Assembly: GCF_015355785.1 (NCBI RefSeq)
Contig: NZ_JADKYW010000003.1
Location: 186,001-250,000, forward strand
Origin: Arthrobacter gandavensis
GTDB taxonomy: Bacteria; Actinomycetota; Actinomycetes; Actinomycetales; Micrococcaceae
Length of the DNA: 64,000 nt
Direction of reading: 5' to 3'
Part shown: positions 42,660 through 46,423 of the stretch, piece by piece
Layout: every line of letters starts with the position of its first letter
Numbering within the stretch: the stretch's first letter is position 1
Program-made: the position numbers and the translations under genes
The notes under the pieces: generated by a model
What the model saw: the letters and a program-made list of their open reading frames with translations, nothing else
Told to the model about the DNA's origin: nothing
The model's database searches: none

Positions 42660-44243
42660 CTAGTTTGCGGCGGCCGGCGCCTGAACGAGGGGAAGCGCCG
42701 TTCCTGCTGCAAGAATGGCCTGGATCTGCCCCGCGGCGAGGGGCCTGCTGAAGTAATATCCCTGGCCGTTGCGGCAGCCCAGCACCAGCAGGTCTGCGGC
42801 CTGGTCCAGGGTTTCAATGCCCTCGAAGACAGCTTCCATGCCGGCGGCACGGATGAGGCCGTGGACGGCATCCACGAACTGGCGCTGTCCCGGGTCCGCA
42901 CTGATATCCCTAATCAGGCTGCGGTCCACCTTGACGGTCTGGACAGGCAGCCGGCGCAGGTAGCTGATCGAGGAGTAGCCGGTGCCGAAGTCGTCAATCT
43001 CGATGCCCACGCCAAGGGCGTTCAGTGACATCAAAGAGTACATCTCAACGTCCCCGCCGCTGACGAACGCGCTCTCGGTGATCTCGATGACCAGGCGGGA
43101 AGCCCGTGTTCCGGTCTCCAGCAGGTCCTGCCGGACGTGGTCCACCAGGTCCAGCCTCTGCAGTTCCATCGCCGAGAGGTTCACCCGGACCTGGAAGTCC
43201 TTATCGAGGTCCAGCTCATCTTCCCAGCGCGCCAGCTGCTCCAGGGCAGCCCGCAGTACCCAGCGGCCAAGATCCAGGATGATGCCGGTTTCCTCTGCGA
43301 TGGGAATGAAGTCATCCGGCATCACCAGGCCGCGCTGCGGGTGCTGCCAGCGCACCAGGGCTTCCACCCCGCTCATCCTGCCCGTGGCAAGCTCGACGAC
43401 GGGCTGGTAGTCGAGGAACAGTTCGTTCCGTCCCAGTCCCTCGCGCAGTTCGGCCGCCATATCCCGGCGAAGCTGCCTGGCGTAGAGCATCACCGGTTCA
43501 AAGGCCTTGCTTTGACCGCGGCCCGCGTCCTTGGCTGCGTACATAGCCGTGTCCGCGCGCACCATGATGGCTTCTGCGCTTTCCCCCGCCTGGGCGGCGT
43601 GGACGCCAACGCTGGCACGCGGCCAGACATCGATTTCTTCCACCCGGATGGATTCGGCGAGGGCCTCGTGTATTCGGGCGGCTACCCCCATGGCGGTGCT
43701 GAGCCCCGTGTCCGGAAGCAGGACGGCGAATTCATCCCCGCCCAGCCTTGCTACCGTGTCCCCCCGGCGGACTGCCCAGCGGATCCTCCTGGCGACTTCC
43801 ACCAGCACCTGGTCTCCGGTTTGGTGGCCAAAGCTGTCGTTGATGTCCTTGAAGGCGTCCAGGTCGATCATGAGGACCGAAGGGCGCGCGCCCTCAACCT
43901 CTGAGGCGAGCAGTTCCGCCTCAATCTCGTGCATAAGGGCGGTGCGGTTGGCGGTCCCGGTCAGCGCATCGCTCATCGCCATCCGCTGCATCTGGCGGTG
44001 CGCCGCCTGGAGTTCCCTGGTGCGGGATTCAACGCGCTCTTCGAAGTCCTGGTAGACGGAATTCAATTCCTCGGCCAGCAGGTTGATTCCCGTGATGACG
44101 GCGTCCACCTCGTCACGCTTCGGTGAGGTGCGGATTTTGGTGTTCAGGTCACCGGCCGCGATCCGGACGATCCCGTCCACCACCTGCTGGAGCCTGGTGT
44201 CCCCGGCCTCCGGAGCGGTCATCGTGTTTTGGCTCTCAACCAT
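42660..44243 (-). CDS. Cytoplasmic GGDEF-EAL bifunctional c-di-GMP protein
   Basis: A 527-residue protein with no membrane helix. Residues ~15-75 form a HAMP-like helical pair (VVDGIVRIAAGDLNTKI, DEVDAVITGINLLAEELN) leading into a coiled coil. The GGDEF domain is intact (VARLGGDEFAVLLP, with ALTGTANRTAL before it). The EAL domain has VEALVRWQHP, the NLSAMELQ metal-ligand Asn, IEIDDFGTGYSSISYLRRLP and FEGIET, so both synthesis and breakdown of c-di-GMP look possible. An alternative start at 44222 overlaps the upstream stop as ATGA; the start shown has AAGG seven bases upstream. It is probably co-transcribed with the STAS-like gene. Confidence 0.92.
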   Translation of the reverse strand: MVESQNTMTAPEAGDTRLQQVVDGIVRIAAGDLNTKIRTSPKRDEVDAVITGINLLAEELNSVYQDFEERVESRTRELQAAHRQMQRMAMSDALTGTANRTALMHEIEAELLASEVEGARPSVLMIDLDAFKDINDSFGHQTGDQVLVEVARRIRWAVRRGDTVARLGGDEFAVLLPDTGLSTAMGVAARIHEALAESIRVEEIDVWPRASVGVHAAQAGESAEAIMVRADTAMYAAKDAGRGQSKAFEPVMLYARQLRRDMAAELREGLGRNELFLDYQPVVELATGRMSGVEALVRWQHPQRGLVMPDDFIPIAEETGIILDLGRWVLRAALEQLARWEDELDLDKDFQVRVNLSAMELQRLDLVDHVRQDLLETGTRASRLVIEITESAFVSGGDVEMYSLMSLNALGVGIEIDDFGTGYSSISYLRRLPVQTVKVDRSLIRDISADPGQRQFVDAVHGLIRAAGMEAVFEGIETLDQAADLLVLGCRNGQGYYFSRPLAAGQIQAILAAGTALPLVQAPAAAN

Positions 44244-44650
44244 TCAAGTGCCTTGTCCCGGGAAGAGAAGTACTTGGTGGGGCAAGACGGCAGGTCACCT
44301 CCGAGCAGGAAGTTGGCTATGACCCGGTCCACCTGCGAGGACCCCAGGACAGCAACCGCGGAAGCGTTTTGGGCGCTGCCGAAGACTGACCGGGCACTGC
44401 GCGTGATGGATTCGATTCCCGTAAGTTCCAGCAGGAGCGGCATCATTCCCGTTCGGGTTAACTGTTCGAACTCCGACGCAGCACGAGCTGCGACCCCTCC
44501 CGTGATGACGGCACCGGGAGGAAGGACCAACCTCACGAAGCCATCCTCCAGGAACACCGCGGCATACCCTTCGGCGAGTCTAGCAGCACTGGCTCCTTCT
44601 ACGGGCGTGGCCTCTTCCGGCAGCGGCGCTGCACTCTCGACCACCGTCAT
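44219..44650 (-). CDS. Small STAS/SpoIIAA-like protein
   Basis: A 143-residue cytoplasmic protein. After a ~25-residue variable start it has FVRLVLPPGAVITGGVAARAASEFEQL, MPLLLELTGIESITRSARSVFG and SAVAVLGSSQVDRVIANFLLGG, then FSSRDKALEWLRAKTR. This alternation of beta and alpha, with the LLLELTGIESI strand and a C-terminal DKALEWL helix, resembles STAS-like domains (the DUF7793 group). It overlaps the GGDEF-EAL gene by up to 24 bp, so it may be a partner that sets that enzyme's activity. The fold call is moderately sure and the function unknown. Confidence 0.72.
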   Translation of the reverse strand: MTVVESAAPLPEEATPVEGASAARLAEGYAAVFLEDGFVRLVLPPGAVITGGVAARAASEFEQLTRTGMMPLLLELTGIESITRSARSVFGSAQNASAVAVLGSSQVDRVIANFLLGGDLPSCPTKYFSSRDKALEWLRAKTR

Positions 44651-44868: not shown

Positions 44869-45897
44869 TTAGCCGTCGAATGGTTCCGGCGAATGGGACA
44901 TGAATCTTCTGGACTGCTCCGCGCGGGCGCCGGCACCCGCTTCTTCGAACAGGTGGGCACTCTGGGCGAAGCGGTCATCCGCGTCCGCCAGCTGGCCCTC
45001 AGCACGGAGAATCCTGGCCAGCAGGAAAACGGCTTCCCCTTCGATATGCGGTGCCATGATTTCCGACTTCTCCATTACGGCGTTCATCTTGGAACGCGCT
45101 GCGGTGAGGTCTCCAGTCAGGAACGACCAGTAGGCACGGGTTATCGCCAGCTCAATTTCGTCCTGCGGTGTGCCACCGGTAATGGAGATTGCCATCTCGG
45201 CCCGCTCAATACACTGCAGGGTCTCCGGCTCGACGAGATTCGCCGTGAGGCGCATGAAGGCGGAAGCCTTGTTGAAGAGCGCCCACAGGCTCACGTCGTT
45301 GGTGGGAGAAAGAGCGGCTGAAGCAAGTCCGTGATAGTGGACAGCTTCCCGGTGCCGGCCAATCAGGAACGCCGCATTTCCTATGGCCCAAAAGGCTTTG
45401 CCAGCCACCTCGGCTTTTGTGTCATGACCGATCATGGCAGCGAAATCCTGCGCTTCACGCCAAGCAGCATCGAAGTCGCCGCTTTCGGCCAGTACTGCGA
45501 CCAGAACCTGCTGGGTCTCTAGCGTGCTCTCGTATCCATTCCGTTCATCACCAGGCGAATCCGCTGCGGACCGCGCGATCGCCAATGCCTTCGGCAGCTG
45601 CCCTAGAGCCTGAAGAGCAACCGAGTGAAGTGCCCTCGCCTTGAACTCCAGATCGCGGTCATCGCAGGTTACGGCGTGCTGCACAAGAACGGTTGCAGTT
45701 TCAGCGCACTCCGCCATCTGGCCCATTTCACGCTGGCACCTGCCTACCAGAAAGACCATTCGACCCCACCCGTCCTGGTCCTCCGTATTCTGCGCGATGG
45801 AAGCGGCACGCTGCGCATACGCCAAGGCATCTGAGTATTCCCGGTTTTCCCAGTGTCGTCGAGCCTTGTACTCGTTCAGTATGAAGTCATCGATCAT
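44869..45897 (-). CDS. TPR-only protein, possible peptide receptor
   Basis: A 342-residue all-helical protein that is made of about eight TPR-like units of ~36 residues from end to end: ENREYSDALAYAQRA, MGQMAECAETATVLVQ, LGQLPKALAIARSA, SGDFDAAWREAQDF, IGRHREAVHYHGLA, LTGDLTAARSKMNAV and EGQLADADDRFAQSAHLFEEAG are visible. There is no helix-turn-helix, signal peptide or membrane helix. That is the architecture of Rap-type members of the RRNPP peptide-receptor family, though TPR alone does not prove it. The start is preceded only by GGG; a 67-codon frame ending at 45894 overlaps it as ATGA. It is divergent from the exported-peptide gene. Its codon use is less GC-rich than its neighbours. Confidence 0.78.
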   Translation of the reverse strand: MIDDFILNEYKARRHWENREYSDALAYAQRAASIAQNTEDQDGWGRMVFLVGRCQREMGQMAECAETATVLVQHAVTCDDRDLEFKARALHSVALQALGQLPKALAIARSAADSPGDERNGYESTLETQQVLVAVLAESGDFDAAWREAQDFAAMIGHDTKAEVAGKAFWAIGNAAFLIGRHREAVHYHGLASAALSPTNDVSLWALFNKASAFMRLTANLVEPETLQCIERAEMAISITGGTPQDEIELAITRAYWSFLTGDLTAARSKMNAVMEKSEIMAPHIEGEAVFLLARILRAEGQLADADDRFAQSAHLFEEAGAGARAEQSRRFMSHSPEPFDG

Positions 45898-46141
45898 CCC
45901 AAAGCCACGACTTTCTCGGTATCCAGCACGGCGATTGCAACACCATGTTCATTGTTGCGTATGGGCGCCGTTCCGGACGCAACGTTACGCTGCAAAGCAA
46001 AGAATGGTCCGGATCCCCAAGTCCGGCGCAGCATATACGAAAGATACCCCGAAATTTGGATACAGGAACGGTTTCGAGGTCTCGTCGTTAGGTACACTTT
46101 ATCTGTCAGCTAGCTGTGAAGACCTCACCATAGGAGCACTA

Positions 46142-46282
46142 ATGAAGAAACTGGGCGCATCGCTTCTTCTCGCGGCAGCCATTACGGCTGTTGGAGTAGC
46201 CGCACCGGCGAACGCAGCACCGTCGTTCGGCAACAATAACGGCGGGACGGTTTCTCCGCTCGTCAATTGGTGGCCGCACTAG
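46142..46282 (+). CDS. Small exported peptide with double-Trp C-terminus
   Basis: A 46-residue protein with a strong AGGAG (46132-46136) five bases before the ATG. Residues 1-25 form a clear Sec signal peptide: KK, a 14-residue hydrophobic core and AxA cleavage (PANA before APSF). The mature part is only ~21 residues, Asn/Gly-rich then SPLVNWWPH. A -10-like TACACT lies at 46093-46098. A strong terminator begins 8 bases after the stop, so it is a one-gene transcript. The WW motif near the C-terminus recalls streptococcal XIP-type pheromones. The other option is a small surface or antimicrobial peptide. The family is not known to me. Confidence 0.75.
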   Translation: MKKLGASLLLAAAITAVGVAAPANAAPSFGNNNGGTVSPLVNWWPH

Positions 46283-46289
46283 GAAGCTG

Positions 46290-46327
46290 AATGCCGGGAC
46301 AATCGCAGATTGTCCCGGCATTTTCAG
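46290..46327 (+). terminator. Rho-independent terminator after the exported-peptide gene
   Basis: A perfect 15-bp stem (AATGCCGGGACAATC and its complement) with loop GCA, then TTCAGTT. It separates the peptide gene from deoC. Confidence 0.87.
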
Positions 46328-46423
46328 TTAACCGCCCAATTCGCACCGGCACTGTATCGGGAACCGGCGGGCGTTACCGGCCCGCATATGGGAGACTGGA
46401 GGACCAGTTTGGAAAGGACCGCC

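Follow-up and report, generated by a model that had tools for sequence, protein, structure and literature searches.

Two divergent genes in a 64,000-nucleotide stretch of Arthrobacter gandavensis DNA (the window) very probably encode a peptide pheromone and its receptor, which would work like the RRNPP systems of Bacillota and form a Rap-like branch with c-di-GMP as a candidate output. One gene encodes a protein built only of TPR units and the other a 46-residue exported peptide (Table 1). The initial annotation had read the two as an RRNPP-like peptide-signalling pair, and at the sequence level this reading gained support from the conserved pairing, from tandem mature units in the peptides of relatives and from kinship of the receptor with XRE-TPR proteins. 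In addition, we observed the gene structure itself, selection on the coding sequence and linkage of the pair to the genes downstream of the receptor.

Table 1. Features of the pheromone-receptor locus (window positions)
Feature	Position	Strand	Description
GGDEF-EAL protein (c-di-GMP synthase/phosphodiesterase type)	42660..44243	-	Proposed output; downstream of receptor, same direction
DUF7793 / SpoIIAA-like protein	44219..44650	-	Downstream of receptor; PF25056, E 2.8e-16
TPR-only protein	44869..45897	-	Candidate cytoplasmic pheromone receptor (Rap-like, without helix-turn-helix); 342 aa, ATG start
Divergent spacer, receptor to peptide	45898..46141	.	244 bp, G+C ~51-52%
AGGAG ribosome binding site of peptide gene	46132..46136	+	Five bases ahead of ATG
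Exported propeptide	46142..46282	+	46 aa; MKKLGASLLLAAAITAVGVAAPANA/APSFGNNNGGTVSPLVNWWPH (slash, proposed signal peptidase cut)
Candidate pheromone core VNWWPH	46262..46279	+	Last six residues of propeptide; inferred from tandem units in relatives
Stem-loop 3' of peptide gene	46285..46329	+	Probable terminator; fold -31 kcal/mol, z -8.0

The coordinates, the open reading frames and an all-helical model of the larger product agree with the back-to-back arrangement described in the initial annotation. The Sec signal peptide that it had proposed for the small product was also recovered, by the simple composition rule (not SignalP) with which signal peptides were called throughout. The ribosome site reported for the small gene was confirmed, and a GGAG-type site is also present in the alignment of spacers from the genus. 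The spacer had been described as low in G+C (about 52%), as it is, compared with roughly 57-67% in the flanking DNA; a promoter-consensus scan of the spacer gave no match. The strong terminator that it had assigned to the peptide gene corresponds to a stable stem-loop and probable terminator, though one that is absent from the output of the consensus terminator scan. Between the window and a relative (L006), the 13 differences in codons 1-26 of the peptide gene are all synonymous (0 non-synonymous), and therefore the open reading frame is a real gene. A chance open reading frame was ruled out by conservation together with the control stretches described below.

The pairing of the two genes is conserved. 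A receptor match was found in 29 of the 29 genomes of the genus that were examined (34-100% identity for the top match in each), and every one of these loci carries a divergent exported peptide of 43-53 aa behind spacers of about 174-253 bp. A genome scan returned 44 receptor loci, nearly all in records titled Arthrobacter, and the peptide was present at 40; at three of the remaining four the contig stops near the receptor (L057, L070, L075), and at the fourth the receptor match is split and frameshifted (L071). Receptor relatives of either architecture occurred in 220/395 genomes of the family, in 27/396 genomes of an order sample (4 of these outside the family) and in 13/393 genomes of a class sample (6 of these outside the order). 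An Arthrobacter agilis-type receptor locus with its peptide also occurs in L042, a record that bears the title Vibrio cholerae strain 35D and is probably mislabelled or contaminated. Except for that record, all named receptor relatives come from Actinomycetota, the search having been made within the class Actinomycetes, and in this respect the system departs from the RRNPPA systems reported from Bacillota.

For counting, we retained receptors with at least 220 profile positions and dropped those that were letter-identical over domain residues 21-200, which left 129; loci were reached via the receptor and never via the peptide, and closely related species were counted separately. At least 700 bp of upstream sequence was available for 125 receptors, and 112 of these passed the peptide filter. 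A profile score above 250 kept 115 receptors, all from Micrococcales. A divergent exported open reading frame (43-115 aa) with a W-P-type motif (F-P in three) lies at 109 of these, 84/86 in the TPR-only class and 25/29 in the helix-turn-helix (HTH) class. Thus, with export called by the composition rule, the adjacent gene for a Sec-exported propeptide that characterizes RRNPPA loci was found at 109 of the 115. The initial annotation had asked whether the TPR gene always has, no more than 500 bp away, a short exported open reading frame with a conserved C-terminus; this expectation was supported at both scales, and the outcome that was to count against it, a receptor with no such peptide nearby, was rare (6/115 in Micrococcales). 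These six were the first copy in L051, L071, L164 and three HTH-degenerate paralogs (L033, L103, L104). Among the ten lower-scoring, more distant receptors, three have a W-P-type peptide (L180, L182, L184), one has a peptide with W-V-Y-P, outside the motif pattern (L183), and the filter found none at the other six (L169, L181, L185, L188, L190, L192). The W-P filter was chosen after the first peptides were known and was widened to LFP/MFP, which was decisive for the genus members L018, L022 and L025. As a control, the filter matched 13 of 4032 random 800-bp stretches from 84 loci, true peptides excluded, and at least five of these 13 matches were one open reading frame sampled repeatedly.

The relatives also indicate which part of the propeptide is the signal. 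Between two and six W-P units are repeated in 39 of the 109 propeptides (15 TPR-only, 24 HTH-type). Examples include 6x VGDWPH (L162), 5x VGNWPD (L165), 3x VGNWPD (L056), 2x IGWWPN (L108), 2x VGEWPH in Zafaria cholistanensis (L074) and 3x VGGSWPT in L166, which belongs to a different family of the order; the main HTH group carries 2-4x GNWPDP ([VIT]GNWPDP). The six VGDWPH units of L162 are spelled with varied codons, and their many synonymous differences leave the core residues unchanged. Since a short unit is present in tandem copies, the mature peptide is delimited, and by this comparison the propeptides would have the short C-terminal mature pheromone, often in several copies, that is a trait of RRNPPA systems. 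Across 172 W-P units from the 129-receptor set, position -3 is V or I in 136 and position -2 is G in 141. At position -1, N accounts for 95 and W for 24, the remainder being S, D, I, M and other residues. Of 109 peptides in this set that contain a literal WP, 61 have a single residue after the last one. By this comparison, VNWWPH, or a slightly extended form, is the likeliest pheromone of the window, with its first Trp at a variable position. Arthrobacter koreensis, a near relative, has VNWWPN. The initial annotation had likened the double Trp to the WW motif of ComS/XIP; we rejected an XIP-like motif because the residue before W varies so widely, and what is conserved is the W-P core.

The window receptor was matched in Pfam mainly by TPR models, every one of them under the curated cut-off (TPR_12, E 7.8e-5). 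Its AlphaFold2 model is wholly helical, with 18 helices and a mean pLDDT of 90, and a Foldseek search with this model returned Rap of pLS20 among the matches (rmsd 4.2-4.4), with the eukaryotic LGN/Pins ranked above Rap. The TPR superhelix expected of an RRNPPA receptor is thus present in the predicted structure, with Pfam TPR scores below threshold. In a receptor profile search, generic TPR proteins came first and RapF appeared at E 0.13; the sequence profile search gave no specific RRNPP match for the receptor. The same genome (L004) holds a second TPR gene on contig C6 (~312.2-313.2 kb), an XRE-TPR paralog broken across two reading frames. Its relatives in the genus (L033, L103, L104) are HTH-degenerate, with no HTH given by Pfam and no peptide, and may be orphan receptors.

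Outside the genus, an XRE HTH (Pfam HTH_31/HTH_3) lies ahead of the same TPR domain in L105, L106, L116 and L133, which is a PlcR-like layout. Foldseek with the L105 model ranked PlcR-PapR-DNA (3u3w) sixth, E 2.4e-6, after TPR designs and LGN. A FastTree phylogeny of 119 receptors groups all 90 TPR-only sequences in a single clade (support 0.961), to which the HTH-degenerate orphans are sister (support 0.884). HTH-bearing relatives beside a monophyletic TPR-only branch agree with the pattern in RRNPPA receptors, where an XRE HTH stands at the N-terminus or, as in Rap, was lost secondarily. Motifs like those of purC and purD, called by eye and by motif with no family search, lie near the receptor in all eight HTH-type loci compared (L105, L106, L107, L111, L116, L133, L139, L140). 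Five genomes (L060, L063, L120, L123, L124) each hold two TPR-only genes and two peptides. Their duplicated receptors split into two clades (supports 0.999 and 0.966), and the peptides divide with them, GNWPD/GNWPG repeats going with one clade and IDDWPH (once IDNWPN) with the other.

By its mean pairwise identity over 16 genus loci, the receptor is fast-evolving: 44.6%, against 61% for DUF7793, 69% for GGDEF-EAL, 81% for PGM and 89% for DeoC (PNP, 92% over 11 loci). This divergence is uneven along the protein. Within the group of eight closest relatives, identity is 92% at residues 201-240 and 52-64% in other blocks. When the window is compared with L005, codons 1-171 carry 52 synonymous and 77 non-synonymous differences and codons 172-285 carry 36 and 7. 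This pattern would fit a receptor whose N-terminal half diversifies and whose site for the W-P core is conserved.

From these observations we infer a path that runs through export, maturation, import and binding to an output. RRNPPA receptors bind a short C-terminal mature pheromone, often encoded in several copies, which is re-imported through Opp and held in the TPR groove. By analogy, the propeptide of the window would leave the cell via Sec, signal peptidase would cleave it behind ANA, and further trimming would yield a short peptide from the C-terminus, around V-N-W-W-P-H. This peptide would be taken up again through an oligopeptide permease (the genome encodes eight SBP_bac_5, or OppA-type, proteins) and would bind in the groove of the TPR protein. 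Having lost its DNA-binding domain, the TPR-only receptor would act by protein contact, as Rap does. Its likeliest target would be the co-located GGDEF-EAL/DUF7793 pair, through which the pheromone would set c-di-GMP.

The choice of this target comes from gene order. DUF7793 and GGDEF-EAL genes lie downstream of the receptor in all 15 genus loci with 5-kb flanks. Outside the genus, we counted linkage on the same strand within 2.4 kb downstream, at loci with at least 2.4 kb there; GGDEF-EAL was found at 43/58 TPR-only loci and DUF7793 at 15/58. This linkage makes c-di-GMP the leading candidate for the output of the TPR-only branch; by synteny, c-di-GMP may be that output, with the DUF7793 protein a possible partner of the receptor or of GGDEF-EAL. 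To a pheromone system whose TPR-only receptor has another output, such as an unlinked regulator, with GGDEF-EAL as a long-term neighbour, we give somewhat less than an even chance. The 15/58 TPR-only loci outside the genus with no GGDEF-EAL downstream would suit such a system, as would the gene order within the genus, which is conserved well past GGDEF-EAL to PGM and DeoC. However, the linkage persists in A. agilis-type loci that have no DeoC or PGM match flanking them, and it is found in other genera yet at 0/11 HTH-class loci (eight with peptide, two orphans and one Streptomyces plasmid), where DUF7793 was likewise absent (0/11).

There are two further possibilities. The peptide could be a secreted effector, antimicrobial or acting at the surface, and the TPR protein its immunity or chaperone protein. 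A fast-evolving exported peptide beside a fast-evolving partner would fit this as well, but the relatives of the TPR protein bear XRE DNA-binding domains, and the repeated 6-8-residue G-x-W-P units would seem to resemble signals more than membrane-active peptides; we regard an effector as improbable. Marginally more improbable, in our estimate, is that the TPR protein does not sense the peptide and the genes merely share a promoter region. A partial Mantel test for covariation beyond shared ancestry, over 34 loci, gave r 0.20 (p 0.03) for peptide against receptor and likewise r 0.18 (p 0.025) for peptide against GGDEF-EAL. The pairing nevertheless persists across two receptor architectures and extends to a further family of the order, and in duplicated loci each copy keeps its own peptide type.

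If the pair is a pheromone and its receptor, Rap-Phr of Bacillus is a close parallel: both have a TPR-only cytoplasmic receptor with a TPR superhelix fold, an adjoining gene for a Sec-exported propeptide and a short C-terminal pheromone, at times in several copies. The present system differs in belonging to Actinomycetota, in its divergent gene pair and W-P peptide core, in having a GGDEF-EAL neighbour in place of a phosphorelay gene and in a sequence match to generic TPR proteins only. PlcR-PapR and NprR-NprX share the XRE HTH and TPR layout with the relatives outside the genus, and PlcR-PapR-DNA ranks high among the folds matched by the L105 model, whereas the window protein has no HTH. The sequences of PapR and NprX show no likeness by eye to the peptides described here. 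ComR-ComS/XIP of streptococci also uses a short exported peptide with Trp near the C-terminus (the XIP motif as given in the initial annotation), but its WW pair is not conserved here. As passages of PMC9765709 describe them, RRNPPA receptors have 5-9 TPR repeats that form a superhelix with a concave groove, and in the Rap branch, too, HTH loss is a derived state. The adjoining gene, according to passages of PMC10075063, encodes a propeptide of 10-100 aa that is exported by Sec. Phage Rap-Phr propeptides likewise hold several mature units, for extracellular proteases to cut (PMC11343458). A phage or arbitrium-type origin was rejected, as no relative of this system was matched in phage records or viral contigs.

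Beyond Micrococcales, XRE-TPR receptors of a Nonomuraea/Streptosporangium-like family align end to end with those of Micrococcaceae (399 columns, probability 99.7%), and 67/120 genomes of this family had a match at E 1e-60. All 30 of its loci compared (L193-L222) have a divergent exported peptide of 41-57 aa whose start lies at a nearly fixed distance; 20 of these peptides end in CC, 9 have W near P and 1 has neither. A divergent exported peptide is also present in Nonomuraea gerenzanensis (L244), and the Streptosporangium plasmid copy (L242) has no divergent peptide. The peptide of L184, from another family, ends in NWPKCC and so combines both endings. Among the 18 loci of a Streptomyces-like family (f34), L180 has the only convincing peptide, with two DIGWP units, and the other 17 (L223-L239) gave none; nor did the Streptomyces plasmid relatives L192, L243 and L245 have a convincing divergent one. 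We see about an even chance that all of these belong to an undescribed, phylum-wide superfamily of Actinomycetota peptide pheromones built on XRE-TPR receptors, with W-P peptides in Micrococcales, GWxWP-like or -CC peptides in Streptosporangiaceae and a TPR-only branch in Micrococcaceae that was rewired from DNA binding to c-di-GMP.

In the parts of the literature consulted, RRNPP peptide systems are treated as a trait of Bacillota. Signals of Actinomycetota are typically enzyme-made small molecules according to passages of PMC10075063, whose survey spanned Firmicutes and viruses only. Actinobacterial signalling includes cyclic or modified peptides in the passages of PMC4748050, which describe no RRNPP-type pair. 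Searches of the PMC literature brought up no account of such peptides, and none of an RRNPP-type system in Actinobacteria; many subscription papers and preprints lay outside that search, and the novelty of an actinobacterial RRNPP-like pair is provisional. A linear-peptide system in actinobacteria would offer signals of 6-8 residues that are directly testable, and it would be a second case of the transition from HTH-bearing to TPR-only receptors, with a possible quorum input to c-di-GMP.
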